From positions 2,695,530-2,759,529 of the forward strand of contig NZ_JAPHEH010000001.1 in NCBI RefSeq assembly GCF_029607905.1: DNA of 64,000 nt, written 5' to 3'. A program made the translations under genes and the position numbers. Positions within the stretch are counted from its first letter, which is position 1, and each line of letters starts with the position of its first letter. Below the pieces are notes generated by a model that made no database searches, was not told where the DNA came from, and saw only the letters and a list, made by a program, of their open reading frames with translations. Positions 2,263-62,324 of the stretch are shown here, piece after piece. This DNA is from Thiovibrio frasassiensis. GTDB lineage: Bacteria; Desulfobacterota; Desulfobulbia; Desulfobulbales; Desulfurivibrionaceae.

Positions 2263-4004
2263 TGTGCGCCGCCGGGCCGCTCATCCCCGGAAGAGAAAGA
2301 CTCCAGCTTCCGGCGAACCACCTCTTTCTTCTCTTCCTCCTCGTGGAGTGCGAGTGATTTTTCGTACGCCTTCCTGGCTTTCGACCGGTCACTGTTTTTC
2401 AGATAGGCATCGCCAAGATGCTCGTAAATGGTCGGGTCATCGGGAGAAAGCGCCACCGCCTGCTCCAATTCCCGGACCGCGGCGGAAAAATCCCCCAACT
2501 GATAGTAGACCCACCCCAGACTGTCCCGAACAAAGCCGTCCTTCGGGAGCTGCGCTACGGCCTGCTCGATATACGCCTTGGCCTTTTCCAGGTTCCGCCC
2601 CTCCTCGGCCCAGGTATAGCCGACATAATTGAGCGCCCGGGCATGTTGCGGGTCAAGTTTCAGCACCTCTTCCATCTCGCGCATGGACCCGGCCATGTCA
2701 TCCAGTTTGTGCAAAAACAGGGCATACTCGTAATGCACCTCCACAGTGTCCGGAAAATCGACAAAGGCCTGGGTAAACACCCCGTGCGCCTTAGCAATCT
2801 TGTCCTCGCCGGCATACAGCATTGCCAGGGCCACATAAAAATTGAGCCGCCGATGCTGCTTGTCCGCCATGGCCTGCTGCAGGGCCTTCTCCGCCCCGGG
2901 AAAATCCTTTTCCTGCTGCAGGATTCTGGCCAGCATGAGCACCGATTCCTCATAGGCCGGGCTGGGGGGACCCACCTGACGGAGCAGTTTCTTGGTCGCC
3001 GCAAGGTCGCCCTGCTGGTAATAGGCCAGGGTCAAGAGTGCCCTGGCCGCGTCTGAATGGGGATCTCTTTTGAGGAGTGCCTTCAGCCGGGTGACACCCT
3101 CCGAACGCCGGTCGGCATCGAGCAGAATCCGGCAGATGGCGAGCTCAACCTTGTCCGGGTTGGCCGAGATCTCCCGGAGCTTCTCCATCTCCGTCAGGGC
3201 CTTCGCTATCTCTCCCTGACGAAAATAAACATTGGCCAAGAAGCTTCTCGCCCTTTCATCGGAGGGGTCCTCTGCCAAAATCCGGTTGTAGATGGCGATG
3301 GCTTGGGAATACTGCTTTTCCTGCACATACAATTCCGCCGCCTCTTGAGCCAGCATCGGCGACCAGTTGAGGGCCAGAGCTTTCTCAAAAGCCTCCGAGG
3401 CCTTATCGAAGAGACGCATCTCCTGGTACAGCTTGGCCAGATAATAGAACCCGGCATAGGAATCCGGATTGAGTTCGGTCAGTTTTTCCAGAACCACCTG
3501 CGCCTTTTCGTAATCGCGCAAACGGGCATAGAGGCTGCCCAGCAACAACCGGACATTGAAGTTTTGCGGATCCTCGGCCAAGATGGACTGATACATGCCG
3601 ATGGCCTCATCGAACCGCTCCATGATGCTGTAGAGATTTGCCAGGAGCGCCCGGGCTTCGATATCTTTGGGATTGAGGTCGATGAGCTTGTTCACCCACT
3701 CAACCGCCTCTTCCTGGCGCCCGGTCTTAACGAGGAGCGTGGCCAGGGAACGCATGACATGCCCGGCCAGACGGTCACAAACCAGGGCCTGCTTGTAGGC
3801 GTAGATCGCCTCATCGTAATGGTCTTCAAGCTCGGCCGACTTGCCCCAAAGATAATGAAAATAAGCGCAGCCTTTGTCCACCGCCTCTTCATAGGGTTCG
3901 AGATCTGCGGCAAAGGGCGGCTGCCCCGGCACCCCCCGAATGGTCGGGGCGCATGACAGGCAGCAGAGAGCCAAACCACCGGCAATCAGCAGACGCTTCA
4001 GCAT
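2259..4004 (-). CDS. TPR-repeat lipoprotein
   Basis: The ATG at 4002-4004 is chosen over an upstream in-frame start because it has GGGAG at suitable spacing and begins a lipoprotein signal (MLKRLLIAGG, then lipobox CLSC with Cys18). The 581-residue product is mostly tandem tetratricopeptide repeats from ~60 to ~560, with the usual hydrophobic/Ala/Gly spacing (for example NPKDIEARALLANLYSIMER and DPQHARALNYVGYTWAEEGR). TPR lipoproteins scaffold protein complexes at the periplasmic face of a membrane. It is co-oriented and ATGA-coupled with the next lipoprotein gene and lies 92 bases after tmk. The specific partner is unknown. Confidence 0.85.
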   Translation of the reverse strand: MLKRLLIAGGLALCCLSCAPTIRGVPGQPPFAADLEPYEEAVDKGCAYFHYLWGKSAELEDHYDEAIYAYKQALVCDRLAGHVMRSLATLLVKTGRQEEAVEWVNKLIDLNPKDIEARALLANLYSIMERFDEAIGMYQSILAEDPQNFNVRLLLGSLYARLRDYEKAQVVLEKLTELNPDSYAGFYYLAKLYQEMRLFDKASEAFEKALALNWSPMLAQEAAELYVQEKQYSQAIAIYNRILAEDPSDERARSFLANVYFRQGEIAKALTEMEKLREISANPDKVELAICRILLDADRRSEGVTRLKALLKRDPHSDAARALLTLAYYQQGDLAATKKLLRQVGPPSPAYEESVLMLARILQQEKDFPGAEKALQQAMADKQHRRLNFYVALAMLYAGEDKIAKAHGVFTQAFVDFPDTVEVHYEYALFLHKLDDMAGSMREMEEVLKLDPQHARALNYVGYTWAEEGRNLEKAKAYIEQAVAQLPKDGFVRDSLGWVYYQLGDFSAAVRELEQAVALSPDDPTIYEHLGDAYLKNSDRSKARKAYEKSLALHEEEEKKEVVRRKLESFSSGDERPGGAQ

Positions 4005-4096
4005 AACAGTTTCTCCCTTTCGACCCAGGACCGTGAGCCAACCCATGATTTTGTTGCCCAGCGTTGTATCATCCACAGACACGATTCCCTTGCCGC

Positions 4097-4696
4097 TCAA
4101 AAAAGCTCGGCCACGGCCTGCATGATCAGAGCATGCACGGCCGCGGCATCCCCTGTTCCGTCAATACGGTGGATATTGGCCCCTTTGAGCTCGGCGAAAA
4201 TCCTGGCCACCCGGGCCAAGGCCCCTTCCTGTTCAAAATCGTTCAGGGTCTCGCCCCGAAGCTTCTGTACCCGGTGTACCCCAAGAGAGACAGGCGCTTC
4301 AAGCATAATAACCATATCCGGCACCGGCGCAAACAATTCATTTGCGGCAATGATCTTTTGCGGATCATGGCCGGCCGCACCCTGATAGGCCGCAGTGGAA
4401 TAATAGTAGCGGTCGGTAAGCACCACCCGGCCGCAGGCGAGAGCCGGGGCGATGACTTGCGCCACATGCTCGCGCCGGTCATCAAGAAACAGAACCAATT
4501 CCTCTGCCGGGGTCACGCTCTGCCGGTTTTTATACAACGCCCTGATTTTCCGGCCATACTGCCCATCGGTGGGCTCACGGGTCGTAACCACGCTTAAGCC
4601 TCGCCGACGCAAGACCTCGGCCAGCAGCTCGATCTGGGTGGTCTTACCGGTCCCGTCAATCCCCTCAAAAGCGATGAGCACTCCTTTTTCAGCCAT
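4097..4696 (-). CDS. tmk: Thymidylate kinase
   Basis: A 199-residue dTMP kinase that makes dTDP for DNA synthesis. Visible motifs: P-loop EGIDGTGKTT at 11-20, the substrate-binding EP at 41-42 (TTREPTDGQ), and the DRY motif at 95-97 (LTDRYYYSTAAYQG). Length fits the family. The start ATG lies 3 bases past the pdxA stop codon, giving tight operon spacing. Family assignment is secure. Confidence 0.95.
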   Translation of the reverse strand: MAEKGVLIAFEGIDGTGKTTQIELLAEVLRRRGLSVVTTREPTDGQYGRKIRALYKNRQSVTPAEELVLFLDDRREHVAQVIAPALACGRVVLTDRYYYSTAAYQGAAGHDPQKIIAANELFAPVPDMVIMLEAPVSLGVHRVQKLRGETLNDFEQEGALARVARIFAELKGANIHRIDGTGDAAAVHALIMQAVAELF

Positions 4697-4699
4697 CCC

Positions 4700-5740
4700 T
4701 TAACACCCTGTTGCACGCGCTAATTTTCTTCTGTTGGCCACAATGGTTTCGGCCATAAAGACCGCGGCGGCCAGACTCGCCGGATCAGCCACCCCCTTGC
4801 CCGCAATGTCATAGGCAGTCCCATGATCCACCGAGGTCCGGACAATGGGCAGCCCGAGGGTCACATTCACCCCGTCGCTGAAATGCAGGAGCTTGAAGGG
4901 GATCAGACCCTGATCGTGGTACATGCACACCACCGCGTCAAACCGACCGGCCGCTGCCTTATGAAATACCGTATCCGGGGGAAAAGGCCCCTCGACCAGC
5001 CAGCCGTCCCGGCGGGCCGCCGCCACAGCCGGTCCAATAATCCGATGTTCCTCATCGCCGAACATGCCGTCTTCCCCGGCATGCGGGTTTAAACCCGCCA
5101 CCGCCAGACGGGGGTGGGGCAGATTAAAATCATCACGCAGGGCCCGGCCGGTGATGGAGATCATCCGCAGCACCGACTCAAAGGTGATGGCACCAGGCAC
5201 CTCTGCCAGGGATTGATGGATGGTGACCAGGGTGATCTTGAGGGTAGCGCCCGCCATCATCATGGCAAAATCCCTTGCCTGACAGAGATCGGCCAGCATC
5301 TCCGTATGCCCGGGGAAGCGGTAACCTCCGGCCTTCAGCGCCCCCTTGCTGATGGGACAGGTCACCAACCCGGCCAACTGCCCCTGCCGGATCAAGCGGA
5401 CCGCTTCTTCGATGTACCCCCCCATGGCCCGGCCTGTTTCCGGGGTGGGCTTGCCCCAGCAGAGACCATCGCCAAGATCGGAAAGGGAAAGGACATTGAG
5501 CGCCTGGGGCCGGCAGAGTGCGCCCGGCTGCCAGTCAACCACCGGAAGGTCGATGCCCAGGGCGGCAGCACAGCGGCGCAACACCCCACCATCCCCGATA
5601 ACGACAGGACTCAGAGACGGTGCGAACCCGCTCTTGGCAAACAAACGCAGGATGATCTCCGGACCGATCCCCACCGGACACCCCATGGTAATCGCCAAGG
5701 GAGGTAATGCAGCAGCTTGCGTTCCCATCTGCACGTTCAT
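4700..5740 (-). CDS. pdxA: 4-hydroxythreonine-4-phosphate dehydrogenase
   Basis: A 346-residue NAD-dependent enzyme of the DXP-dependent vitamin B6 pathway. The three divalent-metal ligand histidines expected of PdxA are seen at 145 (FPGHTEML), 220 (AGLNPHAGEDG) and 275 (VCMYHDQGLIPFK). The N-terminal GCPVGIGPEI segment matches the family's GDPAGIGPE, with Cys replacing Asp. The ATG overlaps the yraN stop as ATGA, so coupling is likely; a second ATG four codons in is also possible. Confidence 0.93.
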   Translation of the reverse strand: MNVQMGTQAAALPPLAITMGCPVGIGPEIILRLFAKSGFAPSLSPVVIGDGGVLRRCAAALGIDLPVVDWQPGALCRPQALNVLSLSDLGDGLCWGKPTPETGRAMGGYIEEAVRLIRQGQLAGLVTCPISKGALKAGGYRFPGHTEMLADLCQARDFAMMMAGATLKITLVTIHQSLAEVPGAITFESVLRMISITGRALRDDFNLPHPRLAVAGLNPHAGEDGMFGDEEHRIIGPAVAAARRDGWLVEGPFPPDTVFHKAAAGRFDAVVCMYHDQGLIPFKLLHFSDGVNVTLGLPIVRTSVDHGTAYDIAGKGVADPASLAAAVFMAETIVANRRKLARATGC

Positions 5741-6129
5741 GCTCCATAGCTCAGGTCAAAGGCATCTTTCACCAGCTCGACCACCGGCGCACCCTCTCCG
5801 GCGATACTGATCGCCACCACGTCAAAGCGGGCCGCTTGCCCTTCCCTGCCTGTCTCGGCAAGATACTGCAGGGCCGCCTTGGAAATCTGCCGGCACTTGG
5901 CGGGGGTGACCGCCTCAAAAGGATGACCGCATTGATGGCCGCGCCTGGTCTTCACCTCGACAAAAACCAGGGAGTTCCGCTCTTCGGCAATGATATCGAT
6001 CTCCCCCTGCTTGGTGCGATAATTTCTCGCCAGCACCCGGTAGCCCTGCCGGGAAAGATACCGGCAGGCAAGGGTCTCCCCCTGCTGACCGAGGGAGATG
6101 GTGCTCGCCTCTTTTATCTTACCAAACAA
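5737..6129 (-). CDS. yraN: YraN family (UPF0102) endonuclease-like protein
   Basis: A 130-residue protein of the YraN/UPF0102 family, with a restriction-endonuclease-like core: GE-AC near the N-terminus, then GEIDIIA (E and D) and FVEVKTR (ExK), the typical acidic-Lys active-site pattern. Its cellular role is poorly defined. It starts at TTG (6127-6129), since no in-frame ATG or GTG precedes the conserved region, and overlaps the rnhB stop by 16 bases. The neighbour rnhB-yraN pairing is common in bacteria. Confidence 0.9.
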   Translation of the reverse strand: MFGKIKEASTISLGQQGETLACRYLSRQGYRVLARNYRTKQGEIDIIAEERNSLVFVEVKTRRGHQCGHPFEAVTPAKCRQISKAALQYLAETGREGQAARFDVVAISIAGEGAPVVELVKDAFDLSYGA

Positions 6130-6761
6130 TCGCGCACCGGCTTAAAACTCTGGCGATGGATGGGACAGGGGCCAATCTCCCGGATAATCCGACGGTGCTC
6201 GGCCGTGGGATACCCCTTGTGCTGGGCAAAGTTATACTGGGGGTATTCGAGATGGTACTGCTCCATGATTGCGTCCCGCGTCACCTTGGCGACAATGGAA
6301 GCGGCGGAGATAGAGGCGCTGCGCGAGTCGCCTTTGACCAGGGCCTGTTGCGGAACCGCCATGGGCACGGTGAACTTGCCGTCGACCAGAAGAAAATCAG
6401 GGAGCGCGGGCAACTTTTCCACCGCCTTGCGCATGGCCAGCAGGGATGCTTGTAGGATATTGAGCCGGTCGATCTCCTCCGGAGAAACGATGCCCACCCC
6501 TATTGGAGCCTGAAGCGCAACCAGGCGATGCATGAGCTCGCCCCGGGCTTTAGCGCTCAGTTTTTTTGAATCCTGGAAATGTTGATACTCGCAGAGGGGC
6601 GGAAGAATGACGCAGGCGGCAACCACCGGTCCGGCCAGCGGCCCACGGCCGGCTTCATCGGTCCCGGCTACGGTGGCGTAGCCTTGGCTGATCAGAGATC
6701 GTTCAATGGCGAAGGTGTCTCCAACGGAAGACGCCGGCCAGAGTGTTATCGCCTTGGGCAA
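6114..6761 (-). CDS. rnhB: Ribonuclease HII
   Basis: A 215-residue RNase HII that cleaves the RNA strand of RNA-DNA hybrids and single ribonucleotides. The catalytic Asp35-Glu36 lie in AGTDEAGRGPLAGP; other family segments are DSKKLS, KGDSRSASISAASIVAKVTRD and HKGYPT. The reading frame stays open far upstream into the rplS terminator region, but that extension is not protein-like. The TTG at 6759-6761 has AAGGTGG six bases upstream and gives the family length. The gene begins just beyond two tandem terminators following rplS, so it depends on read-through or its own promoter. Confidence 0.9.
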   Translation of the reverse strand: MPKAITLWPASSVGDTFAIERSLISQGYATVAGTDEAGRGPLAGPVVAACVILPPLCEYQHFQDSKKLSAKARGELMHRLVALQAPIGVGIVSPEEIDRLNILQASLLAMRKAVEKLPALPDFLLVDGKFTVPMAVPQQALVKGDSRSASISAASIVAKVTRDAIMEQYHLEYPQYNFAQHKGYPTAEHRRIIREIGPCPIHRQSFKPVRDCLVR

Positions 6762-59691: not shown

Positions 59692-59870
59692 AAAAACATC
59701 CCCCTATCCCCCTTCTTTTTCCGCCCGACAACAAAACCCTACAGAACCAGTTGACGCACCCCCTCATTTTTCCCTAGAGTAAAGAGAGCATTCGTTTTTT
59801 TCCCGCCGAACCTGCCCTGTAGGGAGGCGGCACGAAAAAACTGCCTGCAAACCCTTGAGGGAGAAAACTC

Positions 59871-62324
59871 TTGCTACCTTCCCAGCCGCCCAAAAACCAA
59901 CTCAAGCAGTTTGAAACCCTCCGCAAGGAGCTGAAAAAGATCGTCCTCGACCAGGACGACGCCATCGACGAGGTGGTGGACGCCTTCATTCACCTGGCCT
60001 TCCGCCCACCCAAGGAGGCGCCGCCCAAGGCGATCTTCACCTTTCTCGGCCCGCCGGGTGTGGGCAAGATCTATCTGGCCCGGGTTCTCTGCCGCATGCT
60101 CAAGGAGTATGACGGCTTCAAACGTTTTGATCTGGAACGGTACAGCGACCCGGAAAGCGCGGACCAGCTCCTCGCCCCCCAGGTGATCGGCGAGGAAATC
60201 CAGGAAGGCGAACTGATCCGCTTTCTCCGCGCCACCCCCCGGGCCATCATCCTCTTTGAGTCCATTGAAATGGCAAGCAACCAGTTGCAGATGGCGCTGC
60301 TCGAGCTGATTACCAAAGAGGAGCCGGACAACGGCATCAACTGCCGGGAGGTGATCGTGATCTTCACCTCCACCCTGGGCAGCACCCTTTACCAGGGCAA
60401 GGAATTCCTCTCCACCTTCCGGCGCAACAAAACCCGGGCCCAAAGCCTGATCATGGAGGCCATGGCCAAGGAAAAGAAGGTGGCGGGCGATGTGATCCAA
60501 GAGGCGATCGCGCCCAAGCTTCTCACCACCCTGGCCCAAAACTACATCATCCTTTTCAACCGGCTGGGCATGAACGCCATGGTCCGCATCGGCACGGATT
60601 CCCTGGCGCAGGTGGGCGAATATTTCCGGCAAAAAGGAATTACCCTTGAATTCCCCGAGCTCAAGGGGCTGGTCACCCTCCTGGTCCTCTCCCTGGGCCC
60701 GGCGATCACGGCAAAAAAGGTAAAACAGAAGCTGCCCGACGAGGTGCTCTTCAAGATCACTCGCACTCTGCGGCAATTGCCGAGCTCCCCGAGCAAAATC
60801 ATCTTCAAACTCACCAAGAAGGCAGAAGCCTCGCTTCACAAGCTCACGGAGGCAGGCGACCAGCTCCTGCCCCTCATCTACAAAAATAATCAGACCGTGG
60901 AGCTGACCTGGAAGGAATACCTGCGGGGGGAAACCCTCATCTTCAGCCTGGCCAAGGCGGAACCCCGTTCGCTGCCCATGGGCAAGGGGCTGTTGCGCAG
61001 CGAGCGGCCGGCCATTGAGTTTTCCGAGATCGGTTTTGAGAACATCGCCGGCAATCGCCAGACCAAAACGACCCTGAAGCAGATCATCAACACCCTGAAA
61101 AAACCCGAACTGGTAAAGAAATTTTCCATCAGTATGCCCAAGGGCATGCTGCTCTATGGTCCTCCTGGCGTAGGAAAAACCTTGCTGGGCAAAGCCTTTG
61201 CCCGGGAGGCCGGCCGGCCCTACATCTATGTCTCCCGCACCGAGCTCTTTGATTCCGAATACATCCGCTTGGTCTATCTCAAGGCGCGGGAATATGCGCC
61301 CAGCATCGTTTTTCTCGACGGCATCGACGTCAAGGGCTTGATGGAGGGGATGCTGACCGGGGTGCCTGCCGACCAGATCGCCCTTGAAATTGACGCCCTT
61401 TCCGACGAGCCGGAGGAGTCGGTGTTCACCGTGGTCACGGCGGTGAGCCGGGAGGAGGTGCCGCCGCTGCTCATCGAACCGGACCGCATCGACACCTTTG
61501 TCGAGGCGCCGGAACTGGACCGGGAGGCTCGACGCTTCTTCGTCGAGCAGATTCTGAAAAAGCCCAATAACGGCAAGATCGACGTGGACAAGGTGGTGCG
61601 CTACATCTCGGGGATGAACGGCTACGAATTGCAGCGCATCGGCAAGGAGGCCTCCCTCCACGCCATCCGCCACGGCTTGAAATGCATCAGCGAGGAGATC
61701 CTCATCGAGCAGATCAACATCATCAAGTACGGCTCCAAGCTCGAAAAAACCCATATCCGCAACCTGGAGGAAGACCTGCGCATGACCGCTTTCCACGAAG
61801 CCGGACATGCGGTCCTCTCCTACCTGCTGCTCCCCAATACCAAAATCGAGCAGGTGACCATTGCCCCGCGCTTGCGGGTTCTGGGCTTCATCTCCTACAG
61901 CTTCGAGGATTTCCCCAGCAACCTCTCGAAAGAGGAGGTGTTCAACAACATCTGCGTGCTCATGGCGGGAAGAATGGCAAGCATGAAAAAATTCGGCGCC
62001 AAGGGCATGGACACCGGCGCAGCCAGCGATCTGGAAGAAGCGACACACCAGGCCTACACCGCCATCGCCAACCTGGGCATGGACGAGGAGCTGGGCTTTG
62101 TCCACACCGACACCTTAAGCCGCAACGTGAACAAACAGCTCTTCCGGGAGGTGGTGGAACGCCAGGTCCGCCTCTGGATCGACAAGGCCACGCGCAAGGC
62201 AGGGGAAATGATTGAGGCAAACTGGCAACAGATAGAGACCCTGGCCAATATCCTGATCCGCCAGGAGATTGTGGATGGCGGGGAGCTGGAAAAGATTATG
62301 CAGAAGAAAAGGGGCGCCAAGTAG
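59871..62324 (+). CDS. Soluble double-AAA M41 (FtsH-type) metalloprotease with altered ATPase motifs
   Basis: An 817-residue protein. Residues ~20-185: Clp/HslU-like AAA domain with Walker A GPPGVGKIY (60-68; Ile instead of Thr) and a Walker B reading IILFESIE (Phe for Asp). ~190-375: helical linker. ~385-605: FtsH-type AAA with intact Walker A GPPGVGKTLL (430-439), Walker B IVFLDGID (Gly484 for catalytic Glu) and a reduced Arg-finger region (EPDRIDTF for RPGRFDR). ~630-815: M41 peptidase with HEAGH (642-646) and the third ligand Asp720 (GAASDLEEAT). No membrane segment, unlike FtsH. TTG start with GAGGGAG seven bases upstream. Peptidase likely active; ATP hydrolysis uncertain. Confidence 0.85.
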   Translation: MLPSQPPKNQLKQFETLRKELKKIVLDQDDAIDEVVDAFIHLAFRPPKEAPPKAIFTFLGPPGVGKIYLARVLCRMLKEYDGFKRFDLERYSDPESADQLLAPQVIGEEIQEGELIRFLRATPRAIILFESIEMASNQLQMALLELITKEEPDNGINCREVIVIFTSTLGSTLYQGKEFLSTFRRNKTRAQSLIMEAMAKEKKVAGDVIQEAIAPKLLTTLAQNYIILFNRLGMNAMVRIGTDSLAQVGEYFRQKGITLEFPELKGLVTLLVLSLGPAITAKKVKQKLPDEVLFKITRTLRQLPSSPSKIIFKLTKKAEASLHKLTEAGDQLLPLIYKNNQTVELTWKEYLRGETLIFSLAKAEPRSLPMGKGLLRSERPAIEFSEIGFENIAGNRQTKTTLKQIINTLKKPELVKKFSISMPKGMLLYGPPGVGKTLLGKAFAREAGRPYIYVSRTELFDSEYIRLVYLKAREYAPSIVFLDGIDVKGLMEGMLTGVPADQIALEIDALSDEPEESVFTVVTAVSREEVPPLLIEPDRIDTFVEAPELDREARRFFVEQILKKPNNGKIDVDKVVRYISGMNGYELQRIGKEASLHAIRHGLKCISEEILIEQINIIKYGSKLEKTHIRNLEEDLRMTAFHEAGHAVLSYLLLPNTKIEQVTIAPRLRVLGFISYSFEDFPSNLSKEEVFNNICVLMAGRMASMKKFGAKGMDTGAASDLEEATHQAYTAIANLGMDEELGFVHTDTLSRNVNKQLFREVVERQVRLWIDKATRKAGEMIEANWQQIETLANILIRQEIVDGGELEKIMQKKRGAK

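Follow-up and report, generated by a model that had tools for sequence, protein, structure and literature searches.

A soluble FtsH relative with two AAA domains that has apparently lost its motor and kept its peptidase

A gene of Thiovibrio frasassiensis encodes an 817-aa protein in which an M41 peptidase is preceded, in one chain, by two AAA domains, the first ClpB-D2-like and the second FtsH-like. It belongs to a lineage of AAA+ proteases that lost the motor and kept the blade, being apparently motor-less as judged from its residues. The gene occupies positions 59871-62324 (+ strand, as are all features below unless indicated) of the 64,000-nucleotide stretch of DNA that we analysed (hereafter, the window). 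On balance, and with slightly better than even confidence, we favour the view that the product is an M41-type zinc protease, soluble and probably hexameric, whose AAA rings would act as a non-motor nucleotide scaffold or gate. This view is built on the domains, the predicted fold, the motor residues lost and the P-loop and zinc residues kept, as well as on purifying selection and fixation across the clade; from these we infer the hexamer, nucleotide binding, the absence of hydrolysis, ATP-independent cutting and the nature of the substrate.

The gene and its surroundings

The window holds a single intact open reading frame of 817 codons at 59871-62324, exactly where a previous sequence-only reading had placed it, and its relatives cover the full length of the product with 38-90% identity. 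The gene starts with TTG, preceded at 7 nt by a Shine-Dalgarno-like GAGGGAG recognisable in the sequence (59857-59863), and the same codon is found at the homologous start of L011, L012, L016, L017, L020 and L038. Low expression may be an effect of this rare start in the gene and its relatives. The flanking genes in the window encode a calcineurin-like phosphoesterase and a NAD-dependent epimerase. A scan for promoters and terminators around the gene yielded no more sites than shuffled sequence did. We also observed an antisense open frame of 743 aa (window 59874-62105, - strand), which we read as a shadow of codon usage and not as a gene.

Domain architecture and fold

Three Pfam families are recognised in the protein, all above their gathering thresholds: AAA_2 at residues 52-199 (E 6e-15; 56.1 bits against 27), AAA (PF00004) at residues 426-547 (E 8.4e-22; 78.5 bits against 21.2) and Peptidase_M41 (PF01434) at residues 634-809 (61770-62297; E 1.2e-31; 110.5 bits against 29.9). 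We compared an AlphaFold2 model, produced from an alignment of 42 sequences and with a mean pLDDT of 81, to known structures. The N-terminal half (residues 7-354, 59889-60932) adopts the fold of ClpB D2, AAA_2 followed by the small domain, and aligns with the ClpB C-terminal domain 4fcw with a VIA-align Z of 22.0 (3.8 A over 295 residues). In the same kind of comparison residues 368-814 match FtsH with a Z of 22.0, and when the C-terminal half (376-817) was folded alone the score against FtsH crystal structures rose to about 30 (30.1, 361 residues, 4.2 A). The FtsH-type AAA domain thus delimited by Pfam and by fold spans residues 380-625 (61008-61745). The combination of a Clp-like AAA, an FtsH-type AAA and an M41 peptidase in one chain, proposed earlier from the letters alone, is therefore corroborated by both Pfam and fold.

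By sequence the protein is soluble, as had also been proposed: a hydropathy check for transmembrane segments found none. The highest Kyte-Doolittle mean over 19 residues is 1.44, whereas the genome's four canonical FtsHs reach 1.97-2.46. These four are of the membrane type, with FIDEID or FIDELD as Walker B, an FVG or YVG pore loop and HExGH. On the NCBIfam FtsH model TIGR01241 the 817-aa protein scores 214.8 bits, below the cut-off of 600, and we hence consider it a relative of FtsH that lies outside FtsH proper.

Motor residues of the FtsH-type AAA domain

The Walker A motif of this domain is intact (GPPGVGKT, residues 430-437, 61158-61181), and its Lys436 is invariant in 64/64 family sequences. 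The Walker B motif is not: at residues 479-486 (IVFLDGID, 61305-61328) the canonical FIDEID reads FLDGID, with the catalytic Glu changed to Gly at position 484. This is the loss that had been noticed from LDGID alone, and Gly stands at this position in all 32 Desulfobulbales sequences (32/32), in which Asp483 is retained; Asp486 is retained as well. In the Campylobacterota members of the family the two Walker B acids are mostly swapped to ED (LEDID), and the position of the catalytic Glu is an Asp in 31 of the 31 members tallied.

The damage goes further than that reading had described, and includes the FVG loop, the second arginine of the second region of homology (SRH), the sensor-1 Asn and, in the first AAA domain, the GKI ending of Walker A. 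A comparison of lengths places the deletion of the FVG pore loop 1 at LFDSEY (residues 459-464, 61245-61262): the segment 455-465 has 11 residues in 64/64 family sequences and 17 in 9/9 canonical FtsHs, that is, the whole family (64/64) lacks the six residues of this loop. In the SRH (residues 518-545, 61422-61505) the 817-aa protein has neither the sensor-1 Asn nor the second arginine finger. The second arginine is replaced in every family sequence (64/64; Thr542 in this protein), and the first, kept here as Arg539, is an arginine in 50 of the 64 and a lysine in the other 14.

Motor residues of the first AAA domain

In the ClpB-D2-like domain, Walker A (GPPGVGKI, residues 60-67, 60048-60071) keeps its lysine and has its Mg-binding Thr changed to Ile. 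This lysine, Lys66, is invariant in the 49/49 sequences that possess the domain. Both P-loops had been described earlier as kept, and both are present. Walker B (RAIILFESIE, residues 124-133, 60240-60269) had been described as having lost its Asp. The Asp is indeed lost, but not alone, since the change is from Asp to Glu with the catalytic Glu also changed to Ser. The pore-loop aromatic of this domain is gone too. Walker B reads DE in L052, L117, L118, L121 and L166.

A separate observation concerns the ED swap, which L044-L049, L051, L078 and L108-L111 carry in both AAA domains (LEDID and FEDIE). These carriers form one large Campylobacterota group, in which two domains of one chain have undergone a parallel change.

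The peptidase domain

On the other hand, the M41 domain has kept its active site. The zinc motif HEAGH (residues 642-646, 61794-61808) and the third zinc ligand Asp720 (62028-62030) are present, as had been claimed. Among the 64 family sequences Glu643 and Asp720 are conserved in 64/64, His642 in 60/64 and His646 in 61/64, with a complete HExxH in 60/64; among the members with degenerate ATPase motifs H642, E643, H646 and D720 are invariant (63/63). At the junction between the AAA lid and the peptidase, the segment ILxEQINIIKYG (residues 610-621, 61698-61733) is near-invariant across two phyla and absent from the canonical FtsHs that were compared, which makes it a signature of the family. The DNA pattern of EQINIIKYG was tried as a probe for the family and dropped as overly strict (3/297 genomes).

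Phylogeny and selection

In a maximum-likelihood tree of the AAA-M41 part, from which the trait columns had been removed, the family separates from canonical FtsHs with 100/100 support. The family of the 817-aa protein is monophyletic and comprises Desulfobacterota and Campylobacterota. Measured against six close relatives the overall dN/dS is 0.10-0.165, and by part it is 0.036-0.095 for the FtsH-type AAA, 0.06-0.115 for M41 and 0.16-0.24 for the first AAA. These values, together with substitutions that are fixed across the clade, rule out chance or decay. A profile search and phylogeny had been suggested as a check, and they show the same Walker B substitution fixed across the clade (Gly in all the Desulfobulbales). 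Homologues with canonical Walker B motifs do exist (L117, L118, L121, L052 and L166) and sit outside this Gly-fixed clade; our protein is no decayed singleton.

Relatives with an intact Walker B are basal or sister groups on the tree. The basal branches L052, L117, L118 and L121 are proteins of about 925-1100 aa whose two AAA domains each have a canonical Walker B. They already lack pore loop 1 in the second AAA, and in three of these large proteins a crude motif scan of the first AAA picked out a pore-like aromatic-glycine segment. Within the derived clade, the second AAA has an intact DE in L103-L106 (Campylobacterota) and in L161 and L165-L167 (Desulfobacterota), the latter four adjoining the Gly-fixed Desulfobulbales clade and L166 having DE in both domains. 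Since neither Walker B departs from the canonical form in the basal relatives, the motor was lost inside the family, and the distribution of its residues suggests that this probably happened repeatedly, the peptidase being preserved. Indeed, a single loss of the Glu of the second Walker B, with all Glu-less sequences in one clade, was rejected (AU p 0.02), and the enlarged tree requires at least four changes of this trait. The branching order within the derived clade is weakly supported, and we therefore claim repeated loss and state no number; reversal to the Glu within this clade may also be conceivable. The ancestor would have threaded, if at all, through its ClpB-D2-like ring, with the FtsH ring as a connector.

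Distribution and gene neighbourhood

The family was found in 37/146 genomes of the order to which the window belongs, in 5/192 genomes of another Desulfobacterota class and, counting all forms, in 19/200 Campylobacterota genomes. Such a patchy spread is as expected for an accessory gene that is frequently lost or transferred. Among the plasmid matches listed we saw only ordinary FtsH (26-30% identity, none covering 80% of the query). A search for operons and partners found no neighbour common to the whole family. The commonest one, at 14 loci nearly confined to the Sulfurovum type, is a putative uracil phosphoribosyltransferase, read as such by eye. The short form described below often adjoins a divergent gene, again read by eye as this putative enzyme, as at L054, L055, L058-L061, L065-L067, L069, L070, L072 and L074. 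We rejected an assignment to anti-phage defence, the models having given only partial matches to the AAA domain, such as IetA.

Proposed mechanism

We propose that the conserved P-loop lysines would bind nucleotide in both AAA rings, and that the rings would keep the peptidase ring assembled or control access to it, with no useful rate of ATP hydrolysis. Without pore loops the rings would be unable to pull substrate; short peptides and unfolded or damaged proteins would enter passively and would be cleaved at the HEAGH/Asp720 zinc site independently of ATP. Canonical FtsH, for its part, is held to require ATP for unfolding and threading its substrate (PMC9020784). As regards the status of active AAA+ ATPase, the residues present argue against hydrolysis. 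Even with some hydrolysis FtsH-style threading is unlikely, because the pore loop is deleted and the arginine finger lost. The sequence-only reading had offered two possibilities, of which a nucleotide-gated, weakly hydrolysing protease is compatible with our data as long as no FtsH-style threading is implied. A pseudo-ATPase scaffold feeding a real peptidase was the better half of that proposal, except that, with the pore loops gone, 'feeding' is doubtful.

Slow hydrolysis may nevertheless persist, given that Asp486 and Arg539 are kept, as is Asp483 in Desulfobulbales, and the ED swap of Campylobacterota might leave some residual ATPase activity. A rather unlikely alternative is that ATP is slowly hydrolysed with the help of other residues and that the peptidase chamber is opened by this cycle, which would act as a timer or as a conformational switch; as the pore loops are lost, this would be a switch and not threading. 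It would agree with the invariant P-loops and with the retention of both Asp483 and Asp486 in Desulfobulbales. Furthermore, the FtsH-type AAA is the part under the strongest constraint (dN/dS 0.036-0.095), possibly beyond what a passive scaffold needs, and this counts against the motor-less reading. The members that combine an intact DE with the absence of the pore loop (L103-L106, L161, L165-L167) point the same way, since an ATP cycle free of pore loop 1 may have been workable. Against it, Gly484 is unable to serve as a general base, the sensor Asn and the second arginine finger are lost too, and the Glu has been lost repeatedly.

Split forms in Sulfurovum

Sulfurovum-type genomes encode a stand-alone AAA-M41 protein of 450 aa that lacks the first AAA, and no ClpB-D2-like gene is adjacent to it. 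Four of these genomes hold both this short form and a large paralogue (L123, at 3444-6134 on the + strand of its own sequence, L143, L144 and L145). In these four the Walker B of the short form is dead and its zinc site live, whereas the large paralogue combines a live Walker B in its FtsH AAA with a destroyed zinc motif, which reads YEAGR in three cases and KEAAH in L145. Such a complementary loss is the trace that a mixed complex would be expected to leave. Most of the Sulfurovum-type genomes searched contain only the short form, with the caveat that draft assemblies may miss genes. The Sulfurovum genome of L123 also encodes a 559-aa membrane relative of FtsH (L124; G297:C10, about 206177-207181, - strand), in which Walker B and the pore loop are intact and HEAGH has become YQAAK, resembling a bacterial FtsHi-like pseudo-protease.

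We suggest, tentatively and at clearly less than even confidence, that the family repeatedly turned motor-less and nucleotide-held, and that in Sulfurovum the machine was split into two complementary, cooperating subunits. In another alternative for the 817-aa protein, a separate protein with a live ATPase would be the motor of a mixed complex in which our protein provides the cutting site. The complementary pairs of those four genomes are in line with such an arrangement, and mixed FtsH complexes are known from organelles (PMC9020784). We regard it as improbable, because the genome of the window has no dead-protease paralogue, its only other FtsHs being the four membrane proteins with intact zinc motifs, because the short form is alone in most Sulfurovum-type genomes searched, and because a gene neighbour conserved across the family was not found.

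A further role, in which the protein would bind nucleotide and substrates as a scaffold or as a regulatory adaptor, with a structural zinc site and no proteolysis, finds an analogy in the proteolytically inactive plant FtsHi, which have important functions (PMC8197885). It is very improbable: invariance extends beyond the zinc ligands to the catalytic Glu643 (64/64), in keeping with catalysis. An assembly artefact, a pseudogene or a chance fusion has a negligible probability: some MAG copies do carry frameshifts or in-frame stops, but dozens of genomes carry the full-length architecture unbroken, under purifying selection, with intact copies also in Campylobacterota genomes with very long contigs. 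The non-motor scaffold or gate stays our preferred reading.

Comparison with known systems

The closest known systems are the M41 proteases FtsH, i-AAA and m-AAA, with which the protein shares an AAA and an M41 domain in one chain, HEAGH with its Asp and the FtsH fold. Unlike them it has no membrane segment and carries an additional ClpB-D2-like AAA in front, and in the tree its family is a separate clade from theirs (100/100 support). The FVG pore loop, the Walker B Glu, the second arginine finger and the sensor Asn of FtsH are lost. As features of FtsH membership, a TIGR01241 score above the cut-off, the membrane anchor, the Walker B Glu and the FVG pore loop are all lacking. The likeness to ClpB and ClpA D2 lies in the fold of residues 7-354; our protein has lost the pore loop of D2, its Walker B and the Thr of its Walker A, and it lacks both the D1 and the middle domain of ClpB.

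Plant FtsHi and the Ycf2-FtsHi motor are likewise relatives of FtsH that lost one of two activities, and FtsHi work within mixed complexes. The loss in FtsHi is the opposite one, since these are described as pseudo-proteases whose zinc site is missing, and it is the large Sulfurovum paralogues (L123, L143-L145) that resemble them in this respect. The FtsH component of the MoxR-vWA ternary system also has two AAA domains of which the N-terminal one is inactive; both are FtsH-type and the second is active (PMC7159879). In our protein, by contrast, the first AAA is ClpB-D2-like and M41 lies at the end, and we saw no MoxR-vWA neighbours.

The nearest parallel in working principle is LonC of Meiothermus taiwanensis. 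This protease forms a hexamer that still binds six nucleotides although it has no ATPase activity, and it breaks down proteins independently of ATP if they are unfolded, but not if they are folded (PMC3391209). Both are AAA+ proteases whose AAA module is, or in our case would be, without ATPase function and whose peptidase is kept. The comparison concerns this principle only: the peptidase is the serine-lysine Lon type in LonC and zinc M41 here, where no Lon protease domain is found, and the AAA modules belong to different clades. Furthermore, unlike LonC, the 817-aa protein has two AAA domains and keeps its P-loop lysines.

A soluble M41 family with two AAA domains was not found described in the open-access literature that we searched. 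In two phyla relatives survive whose ATPase motifs are intact, half-lost or lost; these graded states form a natural series, which bears on what an AAA ring does without hydrolysis and on whether an M41 ring would work unpowered. The family would be the M41 counterpart of LonC.
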